Source: Prevotella sp. (GTDB lineage: Bacteria > Bacteroidota > Bacteroidia > Bacteroidales > Bacteroidaceae). From it: a DNA stretch of 41,969 nucleotides. Position 1 is the first letter of the stretch. Every line of letters starts with the position of its first letter. The stretch lies in assembly GCA_017557185.1 (NCBI GenBank), contig JAFZAP010000004.1, positions 1-41,969 of the forward strand, given 5' to 3'. Positions 2,662 through 35,837 of the stretch are shown piece after piece. The notes beneath the pieces are model-generated. The model did no database searches and had not been told where the DNA came from. It was given only the letters and a program-made list of their open reading frames with translations. A program made the position numbers and the translations under genes.

Positions 2662-2668
2662 TGGACCA

Positions 2669-2741
2669 AAGGTTCAATGCGCCAAAGGCGCGGTTCAAAT
2701 GGTTCAAATGGTTCAATGCGCCAAAGGCGCGGTTCAAGAGA
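2669..2741. repeat. TTGAAC-spaced mini-hairpin array 2
   Basis: Two copies of GTTCAAT-GCGCCAAAGGCGC-GGTTCAA are joined by tandem ATGGTTCAA words. The array fills almost all the space between the polyprenyl synthetase stop and the tatD start on the same strand. Confidence 0.75.
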
Positions 2742-3716
2742 TTAACTCTGGCGGTGCATCATTTCGGCAGCGTAGTGGCGCATGGCCTGCTTTCGCTCCT
2801 CGGGCAGGCTGATGGCATCGAGGTGCTTCAGGGCCTCGCTGTAGTAATAGGCGATGCGCTCCTGTGCCAGCTTGTCGATGCCGATGGCGTTGTAGAGATT
2901 GGTGACGGCCTTCACCTTTTCCTCGCGGTCGAAATGGGTTGCGGTGATCCAGTGCATGAGTTCTTCGCGCTGCTCAGCATTGGCACGGTTGAGGGCGTTG
3001 ATGAGCATATAGGTCTTCTTGTTGGAGGTGATGTCGCCGCCGATGGCCTTGCCGAAGACGCGCGTGTCGCCATAGACATCAAGGAAATCGTCCTGCAGCT
3101 GGAAGGCCAGTCCCACCTGCTCGCCAAACTGATAGAGGGCGTCGGCATCGGCGGGGGAGGCATCGGCGAGGATGGCTCCCATCTTCGTGGCGCACGCCAG
3201 GAGGACGCTCGTCTTCAGGCGGATCATCTCGATGTATTCCGCTTCGCTGACGTCGGTGCGATGCTCGAAGTCCATGTCGTACTGCTGGCCTTCGCCGATC
3301 TCGAGAGCGGTCTCGGTGAAGAGCGCCATCACGGGAGCGAGCTTGTCGGGACGGCACTGCGCCATGCGCTCATAGGCCAGCACCAGCATGGAATCGCCCG
3401 AGAGGATGGCGGTATTGGCATCCCAACGGCGGTGGACAGTGGGGTGGCCTCGCCTGAGGTCGGCATTGTCCATCAGGTCGTCGTGGAGGAGGGTGTAGTT
3501 GTGGTAGGTCTCCAACGCACATGCCGATGGCAGAATGGTCTCGGGGTCGTCCTTGAACATGTTGTAGGCAAGGAGCATGAGCACGGGCCGGATGCGCTTT
3601 CCACCCAGCGAGAGCACATACTGAATGGGCTCGTAGAGTGAGCGCGGCTGGCGTTCGTAAGGCAGTTGGTCGAGATACTGGTTGACCGCTTGCAGAATTT
3701 CATTTGAAGAGTTCAT
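2742..3716 (-). CDS. Polyprenyl (isoprenyl) diphosphate synthetase
   Basis: A 324-residue trans-isoprenyl synthase that condenses isopentenyl diphosphate with an allylic diphosphate. The first Asp-rich motif is D-D-L-M-D within L-L-H-D-D-L-M-D-N-A-D-L-R-R-G; the second is L-Q-D-D-F-L-D-V-Y-G-D. G-G-K-R-I-R-P near the N-terminus is also typical. The first motif has the DDxxD form without a two-residue insertion, and Tyr sits five residues before it, which suggests a short-chain (C15-C20) product, though chain length cannot be fixed by eye. The start is the ATG at 3716 (M-N-S-S-N-E-I-L-Q). The open frame reaches 3809, but that part is only hairpin-array sequence (translated as repeated N-H-L-N/A-L-N). 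ispH, of the same pathway, lies at 6.3-7.2 kb. Confidence 0.9.
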   Translation of the reverse strand: MNSSNEILQAVNQYLDQLPYERQPRSLYEPIQYVLSLGGKRIRPVLMLLAYNMFKDDPETILPSACALETYHNYTLLHDDLMDNADLRRGHPTVHRRWDANTAILSGDSMLVLAYERMAQCRPDKLAPVMALFTETALEIGEGQQYDMDFEHRTDVSEAEYIEMIRLKTSVLLACATKMGAILADASPADADALYQFGEQVGLAFQLQDDFLDVYGDTRVFGKAIGGDITSNKKTYMLINALNRANAEQREELMHWITATHFDREEKVKAVTNLYNAIGIDKLAQERIAYYYSEALKHLDAISLPEERKQAMRHYAAEMMHRQS

Positions 3717-3724
3717 ATATTTGG

Positions 3725-3811
3725 GGTTCAATGCGCCAAAGGCGCGGTTTAATGCGACTGCGTCGCAGTTCAAATGGTTCAATGCGCTTCGCGCGTTCAA
3801 ATGGTTCAAAA
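3725..3811. repeat. TTGAAC-spaced mini-hairpin array 3
   Basis: GTTCAAT-GCGCCAAAGGCGC-GGTTTAAT-GCGACTGCGTCGC-AGTTCAA, then GCGCTTCGCGC between further TTCAA words. Three different stems occur with the same linker. Located between tonB and the polyprenyl synthetase. Confidence 0.75.
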
Positions 3812-3863
3812 GTTTCCCTCCCCCTTGCCCCCTCCCCCCTTGGGGAGGGCCGGGGTGGGGCCC
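3812..3863. repeat. GC-rich palindrome at the 3' end of tonB
   Basis: CCCTCCCCCC-TT-GGGGAGGG with flanking pyrimidine/purine tracts, directly abutting the tonB stop codon. It may double as a terminator hairpin, though a clear T-tract is not seen. Confidence 0.65.
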
Positions 3864-8325: not shown

Positions 8326-11300
8326 TTATTCGGTGATTGTAAATTCCTTCGCGGCGGCGCGGGCGGTGTATTCGGGCGAGTAGGCGCACTGCACGGTGCA
8401 AGTGCCGGTCTGATAGGTGCCGGTGCGGTCAACATAGTATTCGGTCTCGACGATGTGTGTGCCCTTGGCCATGCGGTCGAAGTAGTAGTTTGTCACGTTG
8501 TCGCGCGGAGCACAGTAGTAACCCCAGCGATAGCCGCTGAGCTGGCCCACAGGCTCCAGGCACGCTGCCCGCTTGTCGCTGACCTGCACGAAGTCGTAGT
8601 CGCGCTCGGCCTCGATCGTGATGCGGATGCGAATGCGATCACCAACCTTCAATCCTTCATCCTTCATCTTTAATCCTTCATCTGGCACTAGCACTTCCCG
8701 CTTCACCTTCAGTCCGCTGGCGGCGTCGGTGATCTCCGTCAGCGGCTGGAACGACTGTGTATAGACAGCACCCCACGACGTTCCGCCACTGGTCTTCTCA
8801 GCGGTGAAAGTCTTGTAGTTGGAGCCCGTCTGCGTACTCTTCACATAGCCTAAGCCAGCCGTAGCCTGCGAGGTCTCGAGTTCACGGCCGTCAACCTTCA
8901 GCACGGCAAGAGCGCCCTGACTGTCGAGGGATTGCAGGTTATTGTTCATGAAGGCATAGACGGCATCGACAGCGTTGAGCGGGGTGTCCCAGCTCTGCGT
9001 ACGCTTCTCCTGCAGGAGCCAGCGCTTCATCTCCTCCACCGTCTTCGTATCCTGGGGTTGCAGCAGGTTGATAGCCTCAATTGCGGCCACCTCGGTGGGA
9101 ATCTTATAGTCGAACCAGCTGTAATAGGCCTTACGGGTATCGAAGTAACGGCCCGTTTCCTCCTTATAGACGGTGTATTCACGGATGCTCTGGAGGTATT
9201 CCCTACCCTTCTGCTCATAGCCGTTCTTGGCAAGGATGACAGCCGACACAGCCTTGCCGTAGATGGTGAATTCCTTGGTCTGCTTGGCCAGGCGGTTCAC
9301 CAGATACGATTTCGCGGCATCCACGTCAGCATTGAGCTTGCGGCCATCGAGGGTGGTCAGGTAGAGCCAGTCGATGGCGGTCTCGCTCGGACGGAGGTTC
9401 TTGACGCCTTTCTTCTCCAGCTTCTTCATCTCCTCCACTTCCTTGACGATCTGCCGGCCCATGAACGAATAGGCCTTCGTGAGCATATCGGCAGTCTTGT
9501 CGTCGGCATTTCCCAGCATGGTGTTCAGACGGACAAACATCTTACTCACGGCCACCGTCATATAGAGTGAACCCGACATGCCCGGCCACCAACTCCAGGA
9601 GCCGTCGCCATTCTGCAGCTTTTGCAGCTGGGAAAGGTTGTTGCCGAGGCGGTAGTTCACGCCGTTCTCGTCGAAATAGTCGCTGAGCAGGCGCTTCTGG
9701 TCGGATTCGAGACGGGCATCGGCCACCCAAGGCGTCTCCTCGAGCACCAACGTCTTCAGTTCCTGGTTTTTCTCCAGACTGCTCATGAGCGAGGTCTCTG
9801 CGCCTTGCTCGCGCTTCCACTGCTCGATGACAGACTTGATGCGCGGCGACTGATGCAGCAGATACGAGGCGATGCTGTTGGCATAGTAGGCTGCCGACTG
9901 GCTGATGGCATTCTTCTCGTGGGCTCTCGCCACTGTGGGCAGCGTCTGTATCATCAGCCAGGCAGGATTATTGGTGTATTCAACGGTGAGCTGAGGGGCT
10001 TTTCCGCTCAGCAGCGATGTCAGGTCGATGGTCTTCGTGCCGGGACCGTTCTGCGTGAACGGAACGGTATTGATGACGCGCTCCACATTCGGCAGAATGG
10101 GCAGGTAGTGCTGTTCGCCATCGCTGAAGCCTGCGCCCGAGGCGCTGATGCGACAGATGAGCAACGACAGGTCGGCGAGTTTCGGCGAGGCGGCATCCAC
10201 GTCGAAGCTGACGCTGGCGGTCTTGTCCTTCTCCACCGCGAACGGCTTGCTCTGCGAATAGACCACCTTCTCGGTTTCGGGATCGAGGAGTTCCAACACA
10301 GCCTGGCCCTTCACGGCTTTCTCGCCAGTGTTGAAGATGCGGGCTGCAATCTGTCCCTTGTCGCCAACGCGCATGAAGCGCGGCACGTTGGGCTGAATCA
10401 TCACATCCTTCTTCGCCACCACCTCGCTTTCCAGCATTCCGTAGCGCACTTCCTTGTCGGTGGCGAGACCCATGAAGCGCCAAGTGGTGATGCTCTCGGG
10501 CAACGTGAACTTCAGGCTGACATCGCCATTCTCGTCAGTAGTGAGCGCAGGATAGAAGAAGGCCGTCTCGTTCAGGTTCTCGCGCATCTGCTTGCTCTCG
10601 CCCTCCTTGGAAGCGCCTGAGTCAGAAGCGATACCCAACCCTGCGATTCTGCGTTGCAGAACTTCATCAGTATCTAAGGCACCAATGGGCTTACTGGCAT
10701 CCATCAGCGCATCATTAGTCGTCAAGACCACCTCCTTCAACACATTGGCCGATTCCGCCTTCGCCATCATCATAGGACGGGCTCCACGAACGCGGACATC
10801 ATGATTGAACACCATGCGGGGCGAGAAGTCGAACATCTCGTCGTCGAAATGGGTGAAGGTCAGCGCACGCTCGATGAGCGATTTGTATGGCTGTTCGCCG
10901 TAGAGACTGACATCGCCGACAGAGCGTCCCTGCCAATTCGTCGAAGGCAGACTGCGCCAGATGTTCAGGCCGAACGGCCACGAATGCTTACGAATGTCGT
11001 CGAGCGAACGGTCGAAGAGCACAGCCGCCAGCGAAGCCGAGGTCTTGGCTTGAGTGGGACTCTCCACATGCAACGTCCACTCCTCGCTCTGTCCGGGCGT
11101 GAGGCGGTCGCGGAATGTCTTCCATGAGAGCTTCAGGCGCTTGTCGGGCAACGGCTTGCGCAACTGGGTGCTATGGCTATAGAGTTTTCCCTCGCGAACC
11201 CAAGCACACGTGAGCAAGGCTCCGTCGCCGTATTCATCCTTATAGGTGAACTGGCGCGTGGTAATCGCATTGCTCTGGTCGATGACCCCGCTTTCCAGAA

Positions 11301-13950
11301 CCTTCTTTCCGCTGATGAGCGTATAGACAATGTGCTGGTCCTTGTCGGAAGAACCCATCTGTACATAGATGGGACGGCCGTCGGCCGGGAACTCCTCAGC
11401 CGAGGCAAAGAACCAGTCGTGGGTCTCCACTACCGGATGCTTGTCCTTCATGCTGAACACCACGAACTCCTGCTTCAACGTGTCCTCGCCGCATGTGGCC
11501 TCCATGAGATATTGACCGGACTTCAGCGCGTTGAAACGCATCTCAAACGACTCGTTGGCAAGCACTGTCTTCGACTCTTTCCTTTCCTTCTCGTTCTTCT
11601 CTACCTTATAAATAGTATAGGCGACGTCGCCGGGAATAGGCTTGCCGGCATTGTTCAAATAGCTGAACGTAACCTTGGCCACACTATCGACCTCAACCTG
11701 TTTCGGCATACTAACCGAGAAGGCTGTAGCCTTGTCGCTCAAAGGCAGCGAAGTCTCACCGTGATGGCTCTCGCCAGCAGCATCGGTGGCATCGGCCTCA
11801 ACGACAAAATTGTAGAAGCGGCCCCATCCTTCATCCTTCATCTTTCGTCTGTCATCCATCACCATGGGCACTTTCACGGTGAAGTTGCCATCGTCGTCGG
11901 TCGTAAGCGTATCGGTGACCAACGTCTTGTCGGCTTCGCCGGTTGAACGCCACCACCACAAAGCACGACGGCGGACCACATTGTATTTCACACGGGCTCC
12001 CTGAACGGGCACACCGGCGAAACTGCGCACATGTCCCGTCACGCTGACGGTGTCGCCATCCTGATATTTCTCCGTTACCTCATCGAATTCCACTTGGAAT
12101 GTCGGACGCTTGTACTCCTCAACGGAGAAATAAGCCGAGCCGTTCTTCGTCGTGATCGAAAACTGTCCTGTCAAACCTGCTGAGGGCAACACAAAGTCGG
12201 CCGAAGCCTTGCCGTATTCATCGGTTCTGACCTGCTTCTCCTCCACAACTTCGTGATTGGCATCGCGCAGCGTCATCGTGAGCAACTCGTTGCTGTTTAC
12301 TTTTGTTTCCCGATGGGCGGAATTCTGATAGGCTATCACCACAGCATGTACCGTCTGTCCAGGACGATAGAGTCTGCGGTCGGTCAGCACGTTATAGACG
12401 TTCTGCGTAGTCTTGTTGTCGTAGAACGAGAAGCCTCCGCCAAACCACTGCTCCGGGCAGGCATCGTCTTTCTCCGTGAAGACGTAGATCTGGTTGGGAC
12501 GGCGGTCTTTATACGTGTATTCCGCCTCCCCACGCCCATCGGTGGTCAGCGTGGTCTGGTCGTTCTTCAACTGGCTGTTGTAGTTGTTGGTGGTCAGGCG
12601 AATCTTTGCGCCAGGCACTGGTCGGCCAGTCGTAGCGTTCACCGCCACCAGACGAACATGGTTGTCGGGCAAGAATTCATAGATGACGTACAGATCGCTC
12701 ACATGCAACAGCACTCGCTCGGTGCGCATATTCGTGCGGTCGGTGGAGAACTCAACAAGGTACACGCCGACGGGCAAGCCCTTGATGGTCATCGAGTCCT
12801 GCAACACCTTGTAGTCAGGCTGTCCCACATAGCGGCGCGTCACAGTTTGCTGCGTGCCGTCGCTGACGATGAGCTTCTTCAGCTTGGCATAGTCCTGGTC
12901 GTTGTTAGGAGTCAGGTCGGTGTCGCCCTTGACGTTGACGCGCGACACGGTCATCGTCAGACGCTGGCAGTTCACGAGTTGGCGAACGTCAACACGGCGT
13001 TCGGTGTTTGGCATCTGGATGCCCTCACCGATGCTGACCGAGAACGACGGCAGCGTCAGCTGGTTCTGGGCGTTGCGCAGGATGTTCATGCGCGGCCAGG
13101 CCCCCCAGTGCTGCAGCGCGTAGTTGATGTAGTTCATCTTCTCCTCGGCAGTCACATCTTCCGCCTGGTCCATGAACTGATAGCGCTCGATGGCGAGCTC
13201 GCCACACTCCTTCAGGTCCTGATACTCGTTGATGAGCGAGTCGATGGTCTGCAGATAATGCGACTTGCGCACTTCGTTCACATCGGCTGAGCGGTCCTTC
13301 TGCGTCAGGTAGTAGGCACAGATGCAGGCTGCCTGACGGTTTCCGTGAGCGAGATACCAGTCGTGCAGTGTCTGATAGTCCTCAGCTTCCATACCCAGCA
13401 CATGCAGCAGGTCGCCACCGAAGATGTGGCTGTCTGCACCTTCCACCAGGGCAGGCTCATAGCCTTTGGCCGACTGGTGTGAGAGCTGCTCCTTGGGCTC
13501 CATCGACTTGGCATAGTAGTCGGCAGAGAGCGTTTTATACTCAGCCCTGTCGGGGTCGTCGGCACCAGAGCGGTAGCCGAAGGAATTGCTCTTCTCCTTA
13601 TAAACACGACCCAGCACACTCTGCCAGACGGCAGCCAACACACGGTTGCCGCTCTTCTCGGCTTGCGACAGGTCATCCTTCACACGCTCCAGTTCCACAT
13701 CGAGGGAGTCGGGTGAAATCTGCGTCTGCACGGCTACATGCCGCAGACTCGCCTTCAACAGCTGACCGTAGCTGCGCTCGGTCTTTGCCTTTGCGGCAAT
13801 CTTGTCGAGCACCTCCAGCTCCGTCTTCGGCAAGTCCTTCGACTGAGCATCACTCACCTGCTTCCATAATGCTGTGTAACCTTGTGCCATCACTTCTAAA
13901 TGCGACAGTGCCATCAAGCAGACAACTGTCAGTAAAACTTTCTTTATCAT
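8326..13950 (-). CDS. Large alpha-2-macroglobulin family protein (no thioester)
   Basis: An 1874-residue exported protein with signal peptide M-I-K-K-V-L-L-T-V-V-C-L-M-A-L-S, cleaved after V-M-A. After an N-terminal helical region come macroglobulin (MG) domains, including the MG2-like R-R-L-Y-R-P-G-Q-T-V-H near residue 522 and the family core F-T-L-P-E-S-I-T-T-W-R-F-M near 1160. The alpha/alpha-toroid region follows (Q-T-L-P-T-V-A-R...; G-D-G-S-W-S-W-W-P-G). No C-x-E-Q thioester is present in the toroid, so it is of the YfaS-like class and would trap or inhibit proteases, or serve in envelope maintenance, without covalent capture. Two short KMKDE-like segments (about residues 695-706 and 1755-1766) are encoded by a dispersed repeat. 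First gene of a likely operon with DUF1573 and ispH. Confidence 0.9.
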   Translation of the reverse strand: MIKKVLLTVVCLMALSHLEVMAQGYTALWKQVSDAQSKDLPKTELEVLDKIAAKAKTERSYGQLLKASLRHVAVQTQISPDSLDVELERVKDDLSQAEKSGNRVLAAVWQSVLGRVYKEKSNSFGYRSGADDPDRAEYKTLSADYYAKSMEPKEQLSHQSAKGYEPALVEGADSHIFGGDLLHVLGMEAEDYQTLHDWYLAHGNRQAACICAYYLTQKDRSADVNEVRKSHYLQTIDSLINEYQDLKECGELAIERYQFMDQAEDVTAEEKMNYINYALQHWGAWPRMNILRNAQNQLTLPSFSVSIGEGIQMPNTERRVDVRQLVNCQRLTMTVSRVNVKGDTDLTPNNDQDYAKLKKLIVSDGTQQTVTRRYVGQPDYKVLQDSMTIKGLPVGVYLVEFSTDRTNMRTERVLLHVSDLYVIYEFLPDNHVRLVAVNATTGRPVPGAKIRLTTNNYNSQLKNDQTTLTTDGRGEAEYTYKDRRPNQIYVFTEKDDACPEQWFGGGFSFYDNKTTQNVYNVLTDRRLYRPGQTVHAVVIAYQNSAHRETKVNSNELLTMTLRDANHEVVEEKQVRTDEYGKASADFVLPSAGLTGQFSITTKNGSAYFSVEEYKRPTFQVEFDEVTEKYQDGDTVSVTGHVRSFAGVPVQGARVKYNVVRRRALWWWRSTGEADKTLVTDTLTTDDDGNFTVKVPMVMDDRRKMKDEGWGRFYNFVVEADATDAAGESHHGETSLPLSDKATAFSVSMPKQVEVDSVAKVTFSYLNNAGKPIPGDVAYTIYKVEKNEKERKESKTVLANESFEMRFNALKSGQYLMEATCGEDTLKQEFVVFSMKDKHPVVETHDWFFASAEEFPADGRPIYVQMGSSDKDQHIVYTLISGKKVLESGVIDQSNAITTRQFTYKDEYGDGALLTCAWVREGKLYSHSTQLRKPLPDKRLKLSWKTFRDRLTPGQSEEWTLHVESPTQAKTSASLAAVLFDRSLDDIRKHSWPFGLNIWRSLPSTNWQGRSVGDVSLYGEQPYKSLIERALTFTHFDDEMFDFSPRMVFNHDVRVRGARPMMMAKAESANVLKEVVLTTNDALMDASKPIGALDTDEVLQRRIAGLGIASDSGASKEGESKQMRENLNETAFFYPALTTDENGDVSLKFTLPESITTWRFMGLATDKEVRYGMLESEVVAKKDVMIQPNVPRFMRVGDKGQIAARIFNTGEKAVKGQAVLELLDPETEKVVYSQSKPFAVEKDKTASVSFDVDAASPKLADLSLLICRISASGAGFSDGEQHYLPILPNVERVINTVPFTQNGPGTKTIDLTSLLSGKAPQLTVEYTNNPAWLMIQTLPTVARAHEKNAISQSAAYYANSIASYLLHQSPRIKSVIEQWKREQGAETSLMSSLEKNQELKTLVLEETPWVADARLESDQKRLLSDYFDENGVNYRLGNNLSQLQKLQNGDGSWSWWPGMSGSLYMTVAVSKMFVRLNTMLGNADDKTADMLTKAYSFMGRQIVKEVEEMKKLEKKGVKNLRPSETAIDWLYLTTLDGRKLNADVDAAKSYLVNRLAKQTKEFTIYGKAVSAVILAKNGYEQKGREYLQSIREYTVYKEETGRYFDTRKAYYSWFDYKIPTEVAAIEAINLLQPQDTKTVEEMKRWLLQEKRTQSWDTPLNAVDAVYAFMNNNLQSLDSQGALAVLKVDGRELETSQATAGLGYVKSTQTGSNYKTFTAEKTSGGTSWGAVYTQSFQPLTEITDAASGLKVKREVLVPDEGLKMKDEGLKVGDRIRIRITIEAERDYDFVQVSDKRAACLEPVGQLSGYRWGYYCAPRDNVTNYYFDRMAKGTHIVETEYYVDRTGTYQTGTCTVQCAYSPEYTARAAAKEFTITE
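8649..8688. repeat. TTCATC-rich repeat inside the alpha-2-macroglobulin gene (copy 1)
   Basis: Tandem CCTTCATC words. Translated on the minus strand as D-E-G-L-K-M-K-D-E-G-L-K near the C-terminus. The same words occur at 11822 and 18738. Confidence 0.7.
11822..11864. repeat. TTCATC-rich repeat inside the alpha-2-macroglobulin gene (copy 2)
   Basis: CATCCTTCATCCTTCATC followed by TCATCCATCACC. Translated as M-V-M-D-D-R-R-K-M-K-D-E-G-W-G in an MG-domain loop. Confidence 0.65.
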
Positions 13951-14174: not shown

Positions 14175-14627
14175 ATGTTGACAATTGGCCAAAAGGCGCC
14201 CGAACTGCTGGGGCGCGACGAGAATGGAAATGAACTGCGACTGAGCGACTTCGCCGGCCGTAAACTCGTGTTGTATTTCTACCCGAAAGACGCTACGCCG
14301 GGCTGCACCAACGAGGCTTGCAACCTGCGCGACAACTACTCGCGACTGCTCGAACGCGGATATGCTGTCGTCGGCGTCAGCGTGCAGGACGAGCGCTCAC
14401 ACAAGAAGTTCATCGAGAAATACCAGCTGCCCTTCCCCCTCATCGCCGACACCGACCACACGCTTGTGGAGGCCTTCGGCGTGTGGCAGGAGAAGAAAAT
14501 GGCGGGCCGTACCTATATGGGAACCGTCCGCACAACCTTCGTCATCGACGAACAAGGCATCATTGCTGAAGTCTACGGTCCGAAGCAAATCAAGGTGAAG
14601 GAGCACGCCGAGCAAATTCTCGGATAA
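14175..14627 (+). CDS. bcp: Thioredoxin-dependent thiol peroxidase (peroxiredoxin Q/Bcp)
   Basis: A 150-residue atypical 2-Cys peroxiredoxin, full length for the family. It has the thioredoxin-like segment L-V-L-Y-F-Y-P-K-D-A-T-P-G-C-T with the peroxidatic Cys at about residue 44 and the resolving Cys five residues later in E-A-C-N-L-R-D, plus T-T-F-V-I-D near the C-terminus. It reduces H2O2 and organic hydroperoxides in the cytoplasm. It converges with superoxide dismutase, the enzyme that produces H2O2, and a 22-bp hairpin array separates the two stop codons. Confidence 0.93.
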   Translation: MLTIGQKAPELLGRDENGNELRLSDFAGRKLVLYFYPKDATPGCTNEACNLRDNYSRLLERGYAVVGVSVQDERSHKKFIEKYQLPFPLIADTDHTLVEAFGVWQEKKMAGRTYMGTVRTTFVIDEQGIIAEVYGPKQIKVKEHAEQILG

Positions 14628-14643
14628 ACGCCCGCCCGCAAAT

Positions 14644-14744
14644 AAAGCTATGCTCTGTTCCTTACGGAGTTATGCTCTGTACCTTACGGAGCTATGCTCT
14701 GTAGATTACGGAGCTATGCTCTGTCTGATATAGAGCATAGCTTT
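14644..14744. repeat. 22-bp hairpin tandem array (copy A)
   Basis: About 4.5 units of exactly 22 bp, each with the core GGAGCTATGCTCT (self-complementary GAGCTATGCTC) and a variable 8-9 bp linker. The array starts AAAGCTATGCTCT and ends AGAGCATAGCTTT, so its ends are perfect 13-bp inverted repeats. It separates the convergent bcp and sod genes and could serve as a bidirectional terminator or mRNA 3'-end structure. Confidence 0.8.
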
Positions 14745-14763
14745 AGATTGAACCACCTGTATA

Positions 14764-15351
14764 TTAAGAAAGATAACGGTTCTCAACTACCTCCCAGTCG
14801 ACTATCTGCCAAAGGGCAGCAAGGTGATCGGGACGGCGGTTCTGGTAATCGAGATAGTATGCGTGCTCCCAGACATCGAAGGTCAGCAGCGGCTTCAAAC
14901 CCTTCTGAACGGGATTGGCAGCATTCGGCTCTTGCGTGATGAGGAGTTTCCCTTCCGCATCGGCCGACAACCACACCCAACCAGAACCAAACAGGGTGGC
15001 ACCCTTTTTCTGGAACTCGTCCTTGAAAGCCTCTATCGACCCGAACTGTGCTACGATGGCCTCAGCCAGCGCTCCCGTGGGCTCCGCCTTCCTCGGGGTT
15101 CCTGAGAACTGTTCGAAATAGAGGTTGTGGTTCAGAATCTGTCCGGCATTGTTCAAGACGCCGCCTGTCGCCTTGCAGACAATATCCTCCAACTTCATAT
15201 CCTCCCACTCCGTGCCTGGCAGCAGGGCATTCAGGTTGTTCACATAGGCAGCAAGGTGCTTCCCGTGATGAAAGCCGATGGTCTCGGCACTAATAGCCGG
15301 TTGCAGGGCATCAGGCGCATACGGCAACTCAAATAATTCAAATTTCTTCAT
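14764..15351 (-). CDS. sodB: Superoxide dismutase, Fe type or cambialistic
   Basis: A 195-residue Fe/Mn superoxide dismutase, full length. Metal ligands are His28 (F-H-H-G-K-H), His75 (N-H-N-L-Y-F), Asp159 and His163 (T-F-D-V-W-E-H-A-Y-Y). Gln71 in N-N-A-G-Q is the position used by Fe-type enzymes; Mn types carry Gly there. Related Bacteroidota enzymes, such as that of Porphyromonas, can work with either metal, so the true cofactor is open. It converts superoxide to H2O2 in the cytoplasm and faces bcp. Confidence 0.93.
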   Translation of the reverse strand: MKKFELFELPYAPDALQPAISAETIGFHHGKHLAAYVNNLNALLPGTEWEDMKLEDIVCKATGGVLNNAGQILNHNLYFEQFSGTPRKAEPTGALAEAIVAQFGSIEAFKDEFQKKGATLFGSGWVWLSADAEGKLLITQEPNAANPVQKGLKPLLTFDVWEHAYYLDYQNRRPDHLAALWQIVDWEVVENRYLS

Positions 15352-17038: not shown

Positions 17039-19645
17039 ATGGAACAGAAACGCTACGGTCATTTCGACGACCAACATCGTGAGTACGTAATCACCAACCC
17101 GCAAACCCCTTGGCCCTGGATCAACTATCTGGGCAATGAAGATTTCTTCTCGCTCATCTCCAATACCGCTGGAGGCTACTCGTTCTACAAGGACGCAAAG
17201 TTCCGCCGTCTGACACGCTATCGCTATAACGGCGTACCAATGGACAACGGCGGCAAGTACTTCTACATAAAGGAAGCCTCCCCTACGGGGGGAGGTTTGG
17301 AGGGGGCTCCCTGGTCCCCAGGCTGGAAGCCCTGCAAGACACCACTCGACTTCTACGAGTGCCGACACGGCATGAACTACACGCGCATCACAGGCCGCAA
17401 GGACGGCGTGGAGTGCTCGGTGCTGTTTTTCGTGCCGCTGAAGACCTGGGCCGAAGTGCAGAAGCTCACGCTGAAGAATCTCTCCGGCGAGGTGAAGCGA
17501 CTGAAGCTGTTCTCCTTCCAAGAATGGTGTTTGTGGAATGCTGCCACCGATATGGAGAACTTCCAGCGCAATTTCTCGACGGGTGAGGTGGAGATAGAGC
17601 GCAACGAAAAGTCCTCTGTCATCTATCACAAGACGGAATACAAGGAGCGCCGCAACCACTATGCCTTCTATTCGGTAAATACGGCCGTACAGGGCTTCGA
17701 CACCGACCGCGAATCGTTCGTCGGACTCTACAACGGTTTTGAGAATCCTGATTGCGTGATGGCTGGCAAGCCGAAGAACTCGGTGGCTCACGGCTGGAGC
17801 CCCATCGCCTCGCACTACATCGAGGTGGAACTGCAGCCGGGCGAACAGAAGGACTTCATCTTCGTGCTGGGATATGTGGAGAATGAGCAGGAGGAGAAAT
17901 ATGAAACCCAACCCCAACCCCTCCCGAGGGGAGTGGAGCTGGTTACCTCGTTGGGAGAGTTGGACCACACAATCATCAACAAGCGGAAGGCACACGAGAC
18001 CATCGAGCGCTTCGACAGCGTAGAGAAAGTGGATGCAGCCTTTGCCGAACTTAACAGCTATTGGGACGACCTTCTTAATATATATAAGGTATCGACAGGC
18101 AATGCAAAGCTTGATCGCATGGTGAACATCTGGAACCAATACCAGTGTATGGTGACATTCTGCATGAGCCGTTCGGCATCGTTCTTCGAGAGCGGCATCG
18201 GACGCGGCATGGGCTTCCGCGACTCCAATCAGGACCTCGTGGGCTTCGTACACCAGATTCCTGAGCGCGCCCGCCAGCGCATCATCGACATTGCTTCGAC
18301 GCAATTCCCCGACGGCGGCTGCTACCACCAGTACCAACCGCTCACGAAGCGCGGCAACAACGACATCGGCGGCGGCTTCAACGATGATCCCTGCTGGCTC
18401 ATCTTCGGCACCGTAGCGTATATCAAGGAGACAGGCGATTTCTCTATCCTCGATGAACCCGTGCCCTTCGACAACCAGCCGGGCACCGAGGTACCGCTCT
18501 TCGAGCATCTGCGCGTGTCGTTCAACCACGTCATCGAGAACCTCGGACCTCACGGCCTGCCGCTCATCGGGCGTGCCGACTGGAACGACTGTCTCAACCT
18601 GAACTGCTTCTCGTGGGATCCCAACGAAAGTTTCCAGACCACCGAGAACAAGAGCGAGGGCTCGAAGGCAGAGTCGGTGATGATTGCTGGTCTCTTCGTG
18701 GTCACCGGCCGCGACTATGTGGAACTTTGCCGCAAAATGGATGAAAGATTAAAGATGAAAGATGAAAATGCTAATAAACCTTCATCCTTCAACCCTCATC
18801 CTTCATCCTATGGAGAGGAGGCCGCCCGCGCCGAAGCTGCCATCGACAAGATGGTCGAGGCCGTGAAACAATACGGATGGGACGGCGAGTGGTTCCTGCG
18901 TGCCTACGACTTCTTCGGCAACAAGATCGGTTCCAGCGAGAACGAGGAAGGCAAGATCTTCATCGAGAGCCAGGGCTGGTGTACGATGGCCGGCATCGGA
19001 CTGGAGGAAGGAATGATCGGCAAGTCGCTCGACTCCGTGAAAAAGTACCTCGATTGCGAACACGGCATCGTGCTCAACAATCCCGCCTTCACGACTTATC
19101 ATGTGGAGATGGGTGAGATTTCCTCCTACCCCGCCGGCTATAAGGAGAATGCTGGTATCTTCTGCCATAACAACCCGTGGGTGATCATCGGTGAGACGGT
19201 GGCGGGACGCGGCGACGACGCCTGGGGACACTATGCGAAGATTCTGCCTTCCTATGTAGAGGAAGACCGCCAGACGCTACACAAGGTGGAACCCTACGTG
19301 AACTGTCAGATGGTGGCAGGTAAGGATGCGGCTCGTCCCGGCGAGGGCAAGAACTCGTGGCTCACGGGTACTGCCGCTTGGATGTGGTACACGGTGTCGC
19401 AGTACATCCTTGGCATCAAGCCCGACTACGACGGACTCCTCATCGATCCCTGTCTGCCGGCAACAGCTCGCGAATACACCGTCAGCCGCCGTTTCCGCGG
19501 AGCCGACTACGAAATCCACGTGCTCAATCCCGACGGCATTTCGAAGGGTGTGAAGGCCATCACGGTGGACGGTCGTCCCATCAATGGCAACATCGTGCCA
19601 TTCGAGACCGGTCAGCACCGTGTGGAGGTTGTCATGGGAATTTAG
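17039..19645 (+). CDS. GH94 cellobiose phosphorylase-like enzyme with three repeat insertions
   Basis: An 868-residue cytoplasmic inverting phosphorylase; cellobiose phosphorylases are usually about 810-820 residues. The start is highly characteristic: F-D-D-x-x-R-E-Y-V-I-T, then P-W-P-W-I-N-Y-L-G near 24-32 and [14 protein letters not shown] near 36. The catalytic acid lies in A-D-W-N-D-C-L-N (513-520), and [10 protein letters not shown] near 390 is a substrate-site motif. The reaction is beta-glucoside plus phosphate to glucose-1-phosphate plus glucose. Extra segments at residues about 80-91, 289-310 and 567-592 coincide with repeats at 17277, 17905 and 18738 and together explain the extra length. 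Cellobiose is the likely substrate, but a related disaccharide is possible. Confidence 0.9.
17277..17318. repeat. GC-rich palindromic repeat inside GH94 (copy 1)
   Basis: GCCTCCCCTACGGGGGGAGG followed by TTTGGAGGGGGCT. Translated as [12 protein letters not shown], placed before W-S-P-G-W-K-P. It is nearly identical in DNA and peptide to the minus-strand copy in the glutamine synthetase gene (20107-20150). Confidence 0.85.
17905..17960. repeat. GC-rich palindromic repeat inside GH94 (copy 2)
   Basis: CCCAACCCCAACCCCTCCCG followed by AGGGGAGTGGAG. Translated as [12 protein letters not shown], inserted between E-E-K-Y-E and I-I-N-K-R-K-A-H-E. Confidence 0.7.
18738..18812. repeat. GATGAA/TTCATC inverted repeat inside GH94
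   Basis: GATGAAAGATTAAAGATGAA on the left and CCTTCATCCTTCAACC with CTCATCCTTCATCC on the right form an imperfect inverted repeat. It is translated as D-E-R-L-K-M-K-D-E followed by [10 protein letters not shown], inserted at residues 567-592. Confidence 0.75.
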
Positions 19646-19653
19646 AATAAAAG

Positions 19654-19693
19654 ATATAGGAGAGGGCCTAAAATTTTAGGCCCTCTCCTATAT
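19654..19693. terminator. Perfect 40-bp palindrome, bidirectional terminator
   Basis: Arms of 20 bp (ATATAGGAGAGGGCCTAAAA and its exact complement) meet with no spacer, between the convergent GH94 and glutamine synthetase stop codons. T-rich tracts follow on both strands, so it should end transcription from both sides. Confidence 0.9.
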
Positions 19694-19711
19694 TATTACC
19701 TTTAGCAAGGC

Positions 19712-21280
19712 TTATCCGCAGTGGAAATACTGCTGCACGAGCTGTGAGATCTTCTTCGGGCTGTCGCTGATATCGGCACGCAAAGTGCGGTCACCGAAGG
19801 CACGCAGCTGGGCGATGATACCGTCGATCATAGTCGGCGAGAACACACCGTGAGCCTCGAAGGCGGCGCGCTGCTTCTCCAGACAGTCGGCCGAAGCCTC
19901 GCAGGAGTCGGGCAGCTGAGCCAGCGTGGCGAGCTTATCGGCGTTGGCGGCATCGTGAATGTTCACATCAACATAGTTCTTCTCGGCAACCTCGAGTGCA
20001 TGCTCCATCTCGAAACCGTGACGGCAGGCAACACAGAGGCCGGCCAACAGCTGATAGATGTCGGCAGAGCCGTCGGGTGAGCGCATCTCGACGGTCTGCT
20101 TCTGAGAGGAAGCCCCTTCCAAACCTCCCCCCATAGGGGAGGCTTTTTCCTCTCCCATCCCTACGGGGGTGGGTCCCTCATTGGCCAACCGGCTCATATC
20201 GGTCTTTGCAGTCCAGCCCAGCGGAACACGCACGAGCACGGAACGGTTGCGGTCGCCCCAGCAGACATTCGTCGGAGCTTCCTGATGCGGCACGAGGCGG
20301 AAGTAGCTCGTGGGGTTCTTGTTGCCGAAAGCAGTGATACTCGGAGCTAAGTCCATCATGCCTGCAATCATGCGAAGGGCATCGTCAGAGAGCGGCGTGC
20401 CGAACTGCGGGCGGGGTTGGTCAGTGAGCATCATGTTGCGACCGTTCTTCACAATACGCATGTGGACATGCAAACCTGAGCCAGCCTTGCCTGTTGTGAT
20501 CTTCGGAGCGAATGTCACGTTCAGCCCTTCACGCCAAGCGAGGTTACGGATCACCCACTTCGCAATCATCAGCTGGTCGGCAGCATCGCACACGGGAACA
20601 GGCAGGAACTCAATCTCGTTCTGCTCATAGACAAGGCCGTCCTGCTCGAAGTTGCCCACTTCGCTGTGACCATACTTGATCTGTCCGCCCGTCTGAGCGA
20701 TGTAGTGCATGCAGCGAGTGCGGAAGTCGTTGGTCTTGGCATAGGGAGCACTCTCGTGATAGCCGCGCTGGTCGATGGCGGGATAGACACCCTCAGCAGG
20801 TTTGATGACGTAGTACTCCAGTTCGCCCATCGCCTCGTAGTCCATACCCGTGACCTCGCGGAAGGCCTTTGCAGCACGACGAAGTGTTTGCTCGGGCGAC
20901 GATGCCAGCGGCTGACCGTCCTTGTCGAAGTAGGAACAAAGCAGACAGAGCGTGGGAATCTCCGAGAACGGGTCAACGAAGGCCGTCGAGTAGCGCGGCA
21001 GAACATAGAGGTCGCTGGCCGAAGCCTGAATGAACGAGAACAAGCTCGAACCGTCAACACGCTCGCCACATGTCAGGATGGTGTTCAGGTAGGCGAGGTC
21101 GCTGATCACGAAGTTCAGCGTCTTCAACTTCCCATCGCCACCGGGATACATGAAGTTCACCATCTTGATGCTGTTCTCCTCGATGAAGCGAATAATGTCT
21201 TGTTTTGTAAACTCTTGCGGCATCTTCTGCAGGTATGCCACCACGCGATTGGCGTTCAACGCCAGACGATCGTTTTCCAT
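19712..21280 (-). CDS. Glutamine synthetase with in-frame repeat insertion
   Basis: A 522-residue glutamine synthetase that makes glutamine from glutamate, ammonia and ATP in the cytoplasm. Motifs include M-G-E-L-E-Y-Y (metal site, about 151-157), G-S-G-L-H-V-H-M (268-274), N-P-T-S-Y-F-R-L-V-P (322-331), W-G-D-R-N-R-S for ATP/Arg sites (341-347) and V-E-M-R-S-P-D-G-S-A-D near 397. The beta-grasp N-terminal domain places it with type I-like enzymes rather than the 700-residue type III. Residues about 367-395 interrupt the continuous segment M-S-R-L-A-N...Q-K-Q-T-V-E-M-R and are encoded by two adjacent GC-rich repeats. The insert is close to the active-site arginine/flap region. Divergent from the MNT/HEPN pair. 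Confidence 0.9.
   Translation of the reverse strand: MENDRLALNANRVVAYLQKMPQEFTKQDIIRFIEENSIKMVNFMYPGGDGKLKTLNFVISDLAYLNTILTCGERVDGSSLFSFIQASASDLYVLPRYSTAFVDPFSEIPTLCLLCSYFDKDGQPLASSPEQTLRRAAKAFREVTGMDYEAMGELEYYVIKPAEGVYPAIDQRGYHESAPYAKTNDFRTRCMHYIAQTGGQIKYGHSEVGNFEQDGLVYEQNEIEFLPVPVCDAADQLMIAKWVIRNLAWREGLNVTFAPKITTGKAGSGLHVHMRIVKNGRNMMLTDQPRPQFGTPLSDDALRMIAGMMDLAPSITAFGNKNPTSYFRLVPHQEAPTNVCWGDRNRSVLVRVPLGWTAKTDMSRLANEGPTPVGMGEEKASPMGGGLEGASSQKQTVEMRSPDGSADIYQLLAGLCVACRHGFEMEHALEVAEKNYVDVNIHDAANADKLATLAQLPDSCEASADCLEKQRAAFEAHGVFSPTMIDGIIAQLRAFGDRTLRADISDSPKKISQLVQQYFHCG
20107..20182. repeat. Two adjacent GC-rich palindromes inside the glutamine synthetase gene
   Basis: First palindrome: AGCCCCTTCCAAACCTCCCC with its GGGGAGGCT end. 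Second: CTCCCATCCCTACGGGGGTG. On the minus strand they read G-P-T-P-V-G-M-G-E-E-K-A-S-P-M-G-G-G-L-E in frame. The first matches the GH94 copy at 17277. Confidence 0.85.
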
Positions 21281-27730: not shown

Positions 27731-27880
27731 GTCTGCGACGCTACGTAAATATGCGCAAATTGACCGTAAATGAATCGTAAATATTTTCGGTTATTCGCGT
27801 GTCATTAACGGTTATTATACGTGATGCCAAAGGCAAAGAAACAACTCATACTTAAGTGTTCATGAATAATTCAGATTAGA
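27731..27880. repeat. 150-bp direct repeat, copy 1
   Basis: Begins GTCTGCGACGCTACG and ends shortly after CATGAATAATTCAG. It matches 28599-28748 at roughly 90% by eye with no length change. No gene is seen inside. Confidence 0.8.
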
Positions 27881-27887
27881 ACCTTAC

Positions 27888-28010
27888 AGAGCTATGCTCT
27901 ATATCCTACGGAGCTATGCTCTATATCCTACGGAGCTATGCTCTGTAACCTACGGAGCAATGCTCTAGACAGACTGGAGCTATGCTCTGTAACCTCTGGA
28001 GCATAGCTTT
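27888..28010. repeat. 22-bp hairpin tandem array (copy B)
   Basis: Five and a half units of exactly 22 bp with core GGAGCTATGCTCT and linkers such as ATATCCTAC or GTAACCTAC. The last unit is reversed (GGAGCATAGCTTT), as in the array at 14644. Confidence 0.85.
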
Positions 28011-28598
28011 TGCAGGTCAATAGCATTGTTTTAGCTGTCCGAAAACAATGTCCTACGACTCCGAAAGCATTGCCCAACGCCTCTAAAATCATAGTTTTGA
28101 GCCTCTGAAACCATAGTTTTTTGATAATTTGAGCATATTTTCGGGGTTAAAAACGCAATAAAGAGGACTATAATGACACACTCAAAAAACGGTCTCAAAA
28201 CATCATTCAGCACTCCTAATTCTGCATAACTATCTGATTTTCAATACATTACAAGGCCGCCAGATGTTTTTATCATCGATGAATAGTGATTTCACTATTC
28301 ATCCTTGTAACACCCTGATACACAATTACTTATAGCCGATGATGAATGGTGAATAGTGTTTTGAAAATTTTACTGAGCGGTATCAATGTCATGAATGTCA
28401 TGAAGGTCATTAAGGATTTTCGAACTCCCCAAAAACCTCACAATATATAAATAATATTTATTATTGTGGCCTGAAAACCCACTTTTCAAAACCTTAATGA
28501 CATAATGACCTTAATGACATTCATGACATTCTTCCTTGAAAATGCGAAGAAGAAAAACGGTCCTTCCCTAGCCTGAATAGTTCATAGAGTTTTTATCA
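28011..28598. other. Gene-free AT-rich tract with several hairpins
   Basis: No supported gene. It holds a perfect hairpin GATGAATAGTGA-TT-TCACTATTCATC at 28278-28303, and a pair of inverted segments built from ATGTCATGAATGTCATGAAGG (28386-28415) and CCTTAATGACATTCATGACA (28492-28530). It also holds the word CATAACTATCTG at 28225, shared with 39805. Flanked by the two copies of the 150-bp repeat. Confidence 0.6.
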
Positions 28599-32698: not shown

Positions 32699-33013
32699 AT
32701 GAAGATCATCCACAACCGGCTGCTGCCGTTCAGGAAATATGATGCCATCAACATCTGCGGTCTGCTTTTTTGCCGCAAGGGGGTGACCATCACTACTGAC
32801 CTCATCCAGCATGAGCGCATCCATACGGCGCAAATGCTGGAGATGCTGGTTGTGGGGTTCTACATTTGGTATCTGATTGAGTGGCTGGTGAGATTGCCGA
32901 TGCATGGGCGTGCTTACATAAACATAGCGTTCGAGCGTGAGGCCTATGAGCACATGTACGACCCGAACTACCTGCTCACACGGAAGCGTTTCGCGTGGAG
33001 AAAATACTTGTAA
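32699..33013 (+). CDS. Small membrane protein with HExxH motif
   Basis: A 104-residue protein, conserved-looking but not assigned by me. H-E-R-I-H at 38-42 fits a zinc-metallopeptidase HExxH helix, and F-E-R-E-A-Y-E-H at 78-85 could supply a third ligand Glu or His. A hydrophobic helix (about 48-66) lies between them. Strongly basic C-terminus (R-K-R-F-A-W-R-K-Y-L). It may be a minimal membrane protease-like protein or a pseudoenzyme. Tightly placed between the transporter and helicase genes. Confidence 0.7.
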   Translation: MKIIHNRLLPFRKYDAINICGLLFCRKGVTITTDLIQHERIHTAQMLEMLVVGFYIWYLIEWLVRLPMHGRAYINIAFEREAYEHMYDPNYLLTRKRFAWRKYL

Positions 33014-33020
33014 GGACCTC

Positions 33021-35837
33021 ATGAACAAAGAACAGAGCGCGGACAAAACCTTCCAGCCCGACGAGAGTCAGCGACAGGTGATCAATGCCGAAGGTGGCTA
33101 TCATCTGGTGTTGGCACCTCCGGGATGCGGGAAGACGCAGATCCTCACCGAGCGCATACGACGAGCCCACCAACGCGACGGTGTGGCCTACGACGACATG
33201 CTCTGTCTGACGTTCACCAACCGTGCAGCGAGGGGCATGATTGATCGCATACGCGAAAACATCAGCGATAGCGAGATAGGACAAGTCTATGTGGGTAACG
33301 TCCATCGCTTCTGCTCGAAATTCCTGTTTGAAAACAACCTGATTCCCGCCGAGACTTCCATCATCGACGACGAAGATGCCATCAGCATCGTGGCTCGCTA
33401 TCTGGACGAGGACGAAATGAAGGTGATGGAGAATAACACACGTCGTCGCGAATACTTCGACTTCATTCATTTTTCACACTTCATGCAGCAGCTGCGCTCG
33501 TCACAGCCACGCCCGCTGCGTATGCATCCGGAGTGCTGCAACAGCGACGATTTGGCGGCGATAAAAAAGATTTGCGATGTACAGAAGATGGAGTTCGATG
33601 CCAATGCCACCCTCGACATCTACGACCATATTGATTTCTACCAGACTGCTTCGCGTATGGAAGGCTACGACCTCGGTTCGCAGGTCACCATCGACCGAGT
33701 GCTCAGCAAGATGAATGCCGCCAAGCAGTATGAGCTGTACAAGCGCGAAAACCGCCTCGTAGACTTCGAGGACTTGCTCATCATGACGTACGATAGCCTG
33801 AGCCTTCCCCCAGCCCCTGATGCGAACACCTATAAAAAGTACCGATGGATACAGGTGGACGAAGTGCAGGACTTGAATCCTTTGCAGTTGGCCATCATCG
33901 ATCAGATTACTGAAGAAGGGGCTACGGTCATGTATCTCGGCGATGAACAACAAGCCATCTTCTCGTTCATGGGAGCCCGACTGAGCACCCTCAACAGTCT
34001 GCGCGAACGCTGTGAAGGACATCTGCACCACCTCTCCACAAACCACCGCTCACCGCAATATCTGCTCGAGGTCTACAACGAATATGCCCGCCACGTGCTA
34101 GGCATCGACACGGCGCTGTTGCCCAAGGCAGCCTCACCACAGTCAAAGCATATGACCTCCCTTCCCTTCAGGGAGGGGTTGGGGGTAGGCTTAGATAGGG
34201 GAGCTCCTCCCCTACGCATCCTTCGCAGCAACACCCTCGACACCGAATTCTACGACGTTGCCCATGTAGCCCACATCTTCGCTGAAGCATACCCCGATGA
34301 GACTACAGCTATCATCGTGAACTCGAATGCCGATGCCGACCTCATCAGCGCTGAACTGCAGAAGATGGAGCAGCCACACTTCAAGGTTTCGGGCGAGGAC
34401 CTCTTCGCTACACGTGAGATGAAACTGCTGGTGGCTCATCTGAACGTACTGGCCAACGAACATAACTTCATCGCGTGGGCACGCTTGCTCAAGGGTTTCG
34501 GTGTGACGGCTTCGAATGCCTACGCCCGAAACTTCGTGCAGTCGCTGCGCCAGCGCGCTATGCTGCCCAGCGACTTCCTCCTTTACGAAAACAGTACTTA
34601 TCTGGAGGAATTTGTCAAAGCCTATGATACGGGAGACATCGTGGTCTTCGACACCGAGACCACCGGACTTGACGTCTTCAATGACGAAATCGTGCAGATT
34701 GCTGCCGTGCGCATGCGACAAGGAGAAATCATTGAGGGCTCTGCATTCAACGTATACCTGCAGACCACACGCCCTATCCCCGAGAAACTCGGCGACATAG
34801 ACAACCCCATCCTCGAAGAACTGAAGAACCACGAACTGCTGCCACCACAAGTAGGTTTGCAGCAATTCCTCGACTATGTAGGCAATAGTACACTGCTTGG
34901 TCACAACGCAATGTTCGACTGGCAGATGCTCAAGAATAATAACAAGAGGGCACTCCCCTCGCACTTATTGTCCCCCTCGCCCAAAATACTCCCCTCGCCC
35001 TTTGGAGAGGGGCTGGGGGTGAGGCCGGGGTTAGGGGTGAGGCTATTCGATTCTCTGAAACTCATCCGGCTCCTCGCCCCCGACCTCAGGCAATACAAGC
35101 TGAAGTATCTACTGTCTGTACTCGGACTGGAAGGAGAGAACAGTCATCTGGCTGATGCCGACGTCGCAGCCACCTGTTCACTGGTGCGCTACTGCTACGA
35201 ACGGGCATTGGACATCCTGCCGCATCAGCGCCAGTTCCGCGCTATGTCGCGTGCACAGGAACGAGCAGAGGCTCTGCGACGCAGTTATCTAAAGTACTAT
35301 CAGCAGGCTCTCGCTACGCTTTACGTTCCGACTAACGACTCAACCCCAGCCCTTCTCAACGAACTTCAGCAATTCCACGACCATCTTGTTGCTGACCAAG
35401 TCATCGAGCCTGTCCGCAAACTGCACTACGTGTTGCGCTATCTGGCTGACAATCTTCTTGATCCCACCAACGAACACTCGCTCAGTCAGCAACTGGCAGC
35501 ACACATCGTGGAAATCAACACGCTGAAAGAAGCCGACCTCTGCAATAGCCACAGCATCGATGATCGCATCTTCGTCTCCACCGTACACAAAGCAAAGGGA
35601 CTGGAATTCGATAACGTCATCGTTTTCGATGCTGTCGAAGACCGCTATCCCAGCTATTTCAACCGCAACAATCCGGCCGCAATTGCCGAAGATGCACGCA
35701 AGTTCTATGTAGCGATCACACGAGCCCGCAAGCGTCTATACATCTCGCAATGCCTCACCCGCATCGACTATCACAACCAACCACGCTCACGACGTCTTAC
35801 ACGTTTCATGATCCCCATCCAGAAATACTTTGGATGA
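33021..35837 (+). CDS. UvrD/Rep-type helicase with embedded DnaQ-like 3'-5' exonuclease
   Basis: A 938-residue fusion. Superfamily 1 helicase motifs: Walker A A-P-P-G-C-G-K-T (32-39), C-L-T-F-T-N-R-A-A, Walker B V-D-E-V-Q-D-L-N (about 277-284), and late motifs T-V-H-K-A-K-G-L-E-F-D (about 852) and Y-V-A-I-T-R-A-R-K-R-L-Y. Between the two helicase halves (about 535-735) sits a DEDDh exonuclease: F-D-T-E-T-T-G-L-D, G-H-N-A-M-F-D and H-L-A-D-A-D. It would unwind and trim DNA in repair or recombination. Residues about 378-395 and 642-675 come from GC-rich repeats at 34159 and 34953. The start at 33021 (M-N-K-E-Q) follows the preceding stop by 7 bp; an earlier start would overlap it. Confidence 0.9.
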   Translation: MNKEQSADKTFQPDESQRQVINAEGGYHLVLAPPGCGKTQILTERIRRAHQRDGVAYDDMLCLTFTNRAARGMIDRIRENISDSEIGQVYVGNVHRFCSKFLFENNLIPAETSIIDDEDAISIVARYLDEDEMKVMENNTRRREYFDFIHFSHFMQQLRSSQPRPLRMHPECCNSDDLAAIKKICDVQKMEFDANATLDIYDHIDFYQTASRMEGYDLGSQVTIDRVLSKMNAAKQYELYKRENRLVDFEDLLIMTYDSLSLPPAPDANTYKKYRWIQVDEVQDLNPLQLAIIDQITEEGATVMYLGDEQQAIFSFMGARLSTLNSLRERCEGHLHHLSTNHRSPQYLLEVYNEYARHVLGIDTALLPKAASPQSKHMTSLPFREGLGVGLDRGAPPLRILRSNTLDTEFYDVAHVAHIFAEAYPDETTAIIVNSNADADLISAELQKMEQPHFKVSGEDLFATREMKLLVAHLNVLANEHNFIAWARLLKGFGVTASNAYARNFVQSLRQRAMLPSDFLLYENSTYLEEFVKAYDTGDIVVFDTETTGLDVFNDEIVQIAAVRMRQGEIIEGSAFNVYLQTTRPIPEKLGDIDNPILEELKNHELLPPQVGLQQFLDYVGNSTLLGHNAMFDWQMLKNNNKRALPSHLLSPSPKILPSPFGEGLGVRPGLGVRLFDSLKLIRLLAPDLRQYKLKYLLSVLGLEGENSHLADADVAATCSLVRYCYERALDILPHQRQFRAMSRAQERAEALRRSYLKYYQQALATLYVPTNDSTPALLNELQQFHDHLVADQVIEPVRKLHYVLRYLADNLLDPTNEHSLSQQLAAHIVEINTLKEADLCNSHSIDDRIFVSTVHKAKGLEFDNVIVFDAVEDRYPSYFNRNNPAAIAEDARKFYVAITRARKRLYISQCLTRIDYHNQPRSRRLTRFMIPIQKYFG
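34159..34208. repeat. GC-rich palindromic repeat inside the helicase gene (copy 1)
   Basis: CCTCCCTTCCCTTCAGGGAGG, shortened at its end, plus GGGTTGGGGGTAGG and a second AGGGGAGCTCCTCCCC hairpin. Translated as T-S-L-P-F-R-E-G-L-G-V-G-L-D in frame. Confidence 0.75.
34953..35043. repeat. GC-rich palindromic repeat inside the helicase gene (copy 2)
   Basis: Several CTCCCCTCGCC words and GGAGAGGGGCTGGGGGTGAG. Translated as S-P-S-P-K-I-L-P-S-P-F-G-E-G-L-G-V in frame, inside the exonuclease domain between N-N-N-K-R and L-F-D-S-L-K. Confidence 0.75.

Follow-up and report, generated by a model that had tools for sequence, protein, structure and literature searches.

In-frame palindromic repeats in genes of a Prevotella-type genus are biased towards particular reading frames

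We analysed a 41,969-nucleotide stretch of DNA from Prevotella sp. (assembly GCA_017557185.1, contig JAFZAP010000004.1, positions 1 to 41,969; the window) in which one short GC-rich palindrome lies inside two genes. The first gene (17039..19645, plus strand) encodes an 868-residue cellobiose-phosphorylase-type enzyme with Pfam GH94 catalytic and supersandwich domains, residues 5-867 of which align with cellobiose phosphorylase 3qde in a match to Protein Data Bank (PDB) sequences. The second (19712..21280, minus strand) encodes a 522-residue glutamine synthetase (Pfam Gln-synt_C and Gln-synt_N) that matched 30 PDB glutamine synthetase sequences. In the GH94 gene the palindrome, which we refer to as family A, occupies 17276..17308 on the plus strand; its 33 bp form 11 whole codons, and the 11-residue peptide that they encode directly precedes W-S-P-G-W-K-P, where the alignment with 3qde has an 8-residue gap and the corresponding loop of relatives is short (for example DGDTV or DNGTV). 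In the synthetase gene the palindrome lies at 20111..20143 on the minus strand and codes ASPMGGGLEGA. Here it is part of a larger insert (20102..20179, minus strand; residues 368-393, EGPTPVGMGEEKASPMGGGLEGASSQ; context MSRLANEGPTPVGMGEEKASPMGGGLEGASSQKQTVE) between MSRLAN and QKQTVE, a position occupied in the 24 aligned relatives by different linkers, most of them about 12 residues long. The arms at 17274-17312 and 20107-20145 are inverted copies of 39 nt that are 92% complementary. A preliminary description of this DNA had reported near-identical palindromes, read in the same element frame, that interrupt segments otherwise continuous in the two protein families; both palindromes lie where it placed them and are translated in one and the same element frame, and the 3qde gap and the differing linkers bear out the interruptions.

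Once fragments had been dropped, the alignments comprised 22 of the 27 GH94 relatives with a match and 24 of the 27 for the synthetase. The family A peptide was absent from all 22 and all 24, and in none of them was the peptide seen without the DNA repeat. A further GH94 enzyme, encoded in a goat abomasum metagenome-assembled genome (MAG; locus L257) and 76% identical, holds the peptide at this loop and encodes it by the DNA repeat, whose ends are offset by one codon, an arrangement compatible with either a shared or an independent insertion. Three further segments of the two genes had gone unmentioned in the preliminary description. A second, family C-like palindrome (20154..20173, minus strand; CCCATCCC..GGGGTGGG on the plus strand) adjoins the family A palindrome of the synthetase and falls in the segment EGPTPVGMGEE. 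In the GH94 gene, a segment at about 17906..17938 (plus strand) that includes a small palindrome (17920-17934) codes 11 residues and makes the loop longer than in most of the 22 relatives, and a TTCATCC-type repeat at about 18737..18811 (plus strand) codes 25 residues; both correspond to gaps in 3qde. The TTCATCC-type repeat matches the genome at 13 places, some of which overlap, compared with 0 for its control. In an AlphaFold2 model of the synthetase (mean predicted local distance difference test score, pLDDT, 82) the whole insert is a loop, with residues 375-388 scoring below 50.

A search of the whole genome, which the preliminary description had proposed, indicated that the palindrome is highly repeated. 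Its core, CTCCCC-N2..8-GGGGAG, is present at 84 sites in the 3.35-Mb genome to which the window belongs, compared with 1 site for the reversed pattern; a less strict initial pattern, with 3 mismatches, found 20 sites, and its control 4. We distinguish family A (CCTCCCCTAYGGGGGGAGGNNNGGAGGGGGC) from two sister families of the same genus, family B (CCTCCCCCAGTTGGGGGAGGTTGGAGGGGGC type) and family C (CACCCCCRACCCCTCCCCCRTAGGGAGGGGA type). At no more than 2 mismatches, families A, B and C were found in 18, 15 and 20, respectively, of 150 genomes in the genus (this one included), and controls gave 0. An exact scan of named genomes for family A returned 85 stretches. The 80 of these that were listed are mostly from Prevotella, Prevotellaceae and Bacteroidaceae MAGs, the other names being Liminaster, Minthosoma, bacterium UBA3734 (MAGs) and one Terrimonas, and those for which an animal or organ is named come from herbivore gut; the copy in the Terrimonas strain lies within a 132-codon open frame. 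Alignment of 70 copies of family A indicated a conserved unit of about 33 bp, most commonly with AAAG before it and T after it, and the profile, made for the ends of family A only, contains no GTAG or CGTC end tag. Inverted pairs occur in family B (for example at L269, L327 and L328). We regard assembly error or chance in GC-rich DNA as a barely credible source of these repeats: the named host records are indeed mostly metagenome assemblies, but the cores far outnumber the control, several separately named assemblies carry the same insertion, and family C has places in a genome (G170) of which nearly all of the 3.2 Mb lies in two contigs (1.80 + 1.37 Mb).

To call the coding frame around each copy we used codon usage in the 240-base flanks on either side, excluding the element itself, with a usage table taken from long open reading frames (ORFs) of the same loci; we dropped copies no more than 110 bases from the end of a locus, as well as duplicates that share the same 25-base flanks. 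On 19 Pfam-confirmed hosts this procedure made 509 correct calls and 0 wrong ones and left 251 uncalled, whereas a first control on any open frame of at least 400 aa, which was probably contaminated by false ORFs, gave 282 correct, 55 wrong and 131 uncalled or other. For family A, 59 of 146 copies are intragenic and in phase (a class that excludes stops by definition), 53 have one coding flank, 27 have none, and 7 are of other kinds (4 same-strand shifts, 2 with opposite strands, and 1, at L165, in which both flanks share a frame and stops adjoin the element). Among the 59 intragenic copies, 47 are read in frame +2 (SPTGGGLEG), 8 in frame -2 (PLQTSPRRG), 2 each in frames +0 and +1, and 0 in frame -1; the consensus contains a stop in frame -0. 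Families B and C were sampled, and their counts are of the copies sampled: 28 of 49 family B copies are intragenic (15 in +2, SPSWGRLEG; 9 in -1, APSNLPQLGE; 3 in +1, LPQLGEVGGG; and 1 in -2, PLQPPPTGG), as are 15 of 92 family C copies (11 in +1, TPNPSPVGRG; 2 in -0; 1 each in +0 and -1), with one coding flank only in a further 15 and 45 copies, respectively. The 102 intragenic copies fall into 65 host clusters. When one copy is counted per cluster and frame, the frames hold 31/8/2/1/0 for family A (31 of 42 in the main frame), 14/7/3/1/0/0 for family B and 9/2/1/1/0 for family C, and equal retention over the open frames is rejected by chi-square (p = 1.3e-16, 8.7e-7 and 4.0e-4, respectively).

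Whichever strand is read, 55 of the 59 intragenic family A copies lie on one codon boundary (54 of 57 in an earlier count), a regularity that we first read as a fixed insertion phase; the several boundaries of family B do not fit that reading. Because these boundaries differ from that of family A, the rule is seemingly set by the translated product and not by phase-directed insertion. A machinery that confines insertion to codon-compatible phases, or to one orientation relative to transcription, would account for the boundary shared by most family A copies but is very unlikely, given the several boundaries of family B, the 87 of 146 family A copies that were not called intragenic, and the fact that no enzyme able to sense the reading phase is known to us. 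The preliminary description had proposed that the element inserts, or is kept, only in a coding-compatible phase, like the palindromic elements of Rickettsia. The first half of this proposal is not supported, given those 87 family A copies and the use of codon phases +2, -1 and +1 by family B; the second half is supported by the in-phase intragenic copies of family A, by their concentration in one frame and by the Pro-Pro-Pro counts given next.

The motif Pro-Pro-Pro stalls ribosomes and requires EF-P. It is encoded in the frame used by 0 of the 102 intragenic copies, compared with 111 of 377 unused open frames (parts 49/209, 58/116 and 4/52). In the minus orientation, family A favours frame -2 over -1 (8:0 clusters) and family B favours -1 over -2 (7:1; p = 0.0014), and in both families the consensus of the favoured frame lacks Pro-Pro-Pro and that of the shunned frame contains it. 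The sole family B copy in frame -2 (L326) lacks the motif in its own sequence, and there are 0 intragenic copies in the two other Pro-Pro-Pro frames of family B. Orientation is also biased in family A, at 51:8 inside genes compared with 31:22 beside genes (p = 0.0012). Since the Pro-Pro-Pro rule was noticed after the counts had been made and the frame classes are few, we treat it as a supported lead and not as a planned test.

These biases bear on two further explanations. As RNA, each of the four consensus repeats folds into a hairpin on either strand, at -14 to -19 kcal/mol, and many copies in all three families have a single coding flank, as might be expected if an mRNA or DNA hairpin were kept for attenuation, stability or protein binding and its coding were incidental. 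Neither the frame bias nor the Pro-Pro-Pro bias inside genes would be expected from such a function, however, and no Rfam match at gathering score was found within the window, so that we think this explanation quite unlikely. If instead the transcribed insert were excised from the RNA or from the protein, or bypassed by the ribosome, its tolerance in conserved enzymes would be accounted for. Our analyses provided no positive evidence for this, and 102 of 103 copies whose two flanks are coding in one frame stay open through the element, which removal would not demand; we therefore regard it as highly improbable.

Pfam named 19 of 20 hosts hand-picked from the 65 clusters (that at L121 had no match), including PriA, leucyl-tRNA synthetase, asparagine synthase, tRNA nucleotidyltransferase, SufBD, dihydrouridine synthase, carbamoyltransferase, EPSP synthase, GH2, GH3, GH31, rhamnosidase and others. 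Different families occupy the same loops of some hosts. Families A and B share one loop of Mfd (the expected domains are present in Mfd of L130 and L326), families A, B and C share one loop of a GH2 beta-galactosidase, and one loop of tRNA nucleotidyltransferase holds family B both singly and as an inverted pair (L286 and L328). Family A also lies in a TatD-like protein (L230), at the loop that holds another palindrome in the TatD of the window. The latter is a TatD DNase (1828-2661, minus strand) in which the palindrome at 2363-2382 codes the segment NQSPIPLGGDGGG just before IAIGEVGLD. Some insertions are common to several genomes, namely that in Mfd (L130 and L135) and that in a CarboxypepD_reg-like protein (L137, L190, L193, L242 and L251). 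Shared insertions and the recurrent use of the same loops are what might be seen if the peptide were useful, for example as a linker, docking site or regulatory tag, and were kept by positive selection. We consider this improbable, because the insertions lie in enzymes that have no relation to one another, no aligned relative of either window gene has the peptide, and in some other species the same GH94 loops are filled by quite different segments, which look repeat-coded.

Filled and empty sites were compared at three places. In Mfd, MP-QGDG-YQEM corresponds to MP-VTSPMGGGREGA-YQEM (12 nt, coding QGDG, compared with 36 nt), and the two GH94 sites have 15 nt compared with 39 nt (site 1, L257) and 6 nt compared with 36 nt (site 2, L264). 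No target-site duplication is visible at the three sites, and an eroded one would be compatible with the data because loop bases have been replaced. We also looked for a link to REP-associated tyrosine transposases (RAYT; REP, repetitive extragenic palindrome). Matches to Y1_Tnp are present in the genome of the window, in 4 of 5 other genomes bearing family A and in 3 of 7 that lack family A places. Of 18 transposase loci, 3 contain a site resembling the core (1 mismatch), and none of these sites has the family A form. The link is not supported; the transposase occurs inconsistently, and family A does not flank it. Since neither a target duplication nor a consistently flanking tyrosine transposase was seen, we lean towards copying during DNA repair or replication over a dedicated transposase, although we put the chances of this mode of spread at about even.

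Many intragenic copies thus lie in recognisable enzymes with the frame kept, their use of the open frames is strongly biased, and a short loop has given way to the element at each of the three compared sites. We think it probable that family A and its sisters B and C are REP-like, non-autonomous repeats that scatter between and inside genes of a Prevotella-type genus, and that selection removes intragenic copies that fit poorly, leaving the rest as tolerated loops. Copies in other frames, or at positions where the protein has no room, would be lost, in the former case presumably because those frames carry a stop, the Pro-Pro-Pro stall motif or an ill-tolerated peptide; in the survivors the translated element would form a flexible loop at the protein surface and hardly disturb its host. 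A stronger version, in which the palindrome is itself fitted to coding, one frame being held to a mild loop peptide that lets the element colonise genes of dense genomes and seed new loops in essential enzymes clade-wide, with families converging on the same loops, we hold to be unlikely.

Several observations weigh against the explanation by scattering and selection. Translation of the inserts is read from their open, in-phase frames, and their surface position is conjectural, one host (the synthetase) having been modelled; low model confidence at its insert counts in favour of the explanation, but residues 262-267 and 329-340 of that model likewise score below 50 pLDDT. All three compared sites have 6-15 nt replaced in place of a clean interruption, and since the relatives compared are other species, later change is inseparable from the insertion event. 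For families B and C, intragenic copies and those at the edges of genes show no difference in orientation. The Pro-Pro-Pro rule is post hoc, applies to few frame classes and to copies that are not independent, and leaves the rarity of family A frames +1 (2 of 59) and +0 (2 of 59) unexplained. Finally, the long ORFs that served to train the frame caller come from the very loci to which it was applied.

In-frame palindromes are best known from Rickettsia. The Rickettsia palindromic elements (RPEs), and the Wolbachia palindromic element (WPE), are likewise palindromic and in frame in conserved protein genes, and, in the sections of the two accounts drawn on here, RPE groups of different kinds lie near each other in orthologues (PMC3767692, PMC2229807) and translation of the insert was shown in the case of gmk (PMC2229807). 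The families described here share with RPEs a position inside ORFs with the frame intact (102 in-phase intragenic copies in three families, and one more with stops beside it). RPEs are about 100-150 bp long and belong to Rickettsiales, however, whereas family A is 33 bp, GC-rich and found in Bacteroidales-type genomes. The likeness to RPEs drawn in the preliminary description therefore holds for behaviour but not for membership, the comparison being one of descriptions and not of sequences. The GTAG/CGTC-tagged REPs of Di Nocera and colleagues are likewise 20-40 bp palindromes, single and dimeric; as far as the sections drawn on here go, REPs of this size are known inside ORFs in several species (many of these ORFs encode repair proteins, and some encode tRNA enzymes), and CGTC repeats are noted in Bacteroidetes among other phyla (PMC3733652). 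Family A, at 33 bp and multicopy, and family B, with its inverted pairs, resemble them, but those REPs have an end tag and, in the GTAG class, a RAYT association; family A has no tag and its transposase link is unsupported. Nor is a frame bias reported for them in those sections (PMC3733652), whereas it is strong here. Because the REP tag, the RPE size and the RPE host are all lacking, we assign family A to neither group.

Miniature inverted-repeat transposable elements (MITEs) with open frames (ERIC/RU-1, RU-2 and NEMIS 107) are also small, non-autonomous and fused in frame to genes, but in the excerpted account they are about 100-200 bp and mostly have terminal inverted repeats and target duplications (PMC2229807), unlike the three sites compared here. 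PINSR of Prevotella intermedia, which was likewise amplified in a Prevotella lineage, is described in the part of its report used here as 188 bp, intergenic and without terminal inverted repeats (PMC4755523), unlike the 33-bp palindrome of family A. At title and abstract level, the openly licensed literature yielded no description of in-frame palindromes in Prevotella or other Bacteroidetes, and the excerpts used of repeat studies in Porphyromonas (PMC5771137), P. intermedia (PMC4755523) and Coxiella (PMC5896051) do not describe in-frame palindrome elements. Within the literature consulted, what appears to be new here is a strong frame bias tied to the translated product, together with several repeat families that meet in the same loops. 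The 65 host clusters of this abundant gut genus amount to a natural experiment on which loop insertions are tolerated and which encoded peptides survive, and they bear on ribosome stalling at Pro-Pro-Pro and on the gain of new protein segments. Gene models and alignments of the genus call for caution, since they carry segments that are repeat-coded and not ancestral.

The window and its genome contain other repeats. In the genome of the window, Mfd (L380, G000:C39) has a repeat-like insert of 26 residues, PPAPPKGEGGSPTPTLPRREGGNKGD, elsewhere in the protein. An alpha-2-macroglobulin-type protein (8326-13950, minus strand) contains two in-frame TTCATCC-type repeats like that of the GH94 gene, near 8682 and 11856 (DEGLKMKDEGLKV; DDRRKMKDEGWG). 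A UvrD-type helicase (32937-35837, plus strand), which has an exonuclease (RNase_T) match inside its UvrD_C match, contains the palindrome-like coded segments TSLPFREGLGVGL (~34156-34176) and ILPSPFGEGLGVRPGLGVRL (~34965-35045), the second of them inside the exonuclease match. Arrays of 22-nt units (GGAGCTATGCTCTGTA-CCTTAC type) that are apparently intergenic lie at 14624-14766 and 27846-28032, with a related inverted form at 337-431, and clusters of GGTTCAA / GCGCCAAAGGCGC and TTGAACCGC repeats lie at 2668-3816 and 41734-41967.

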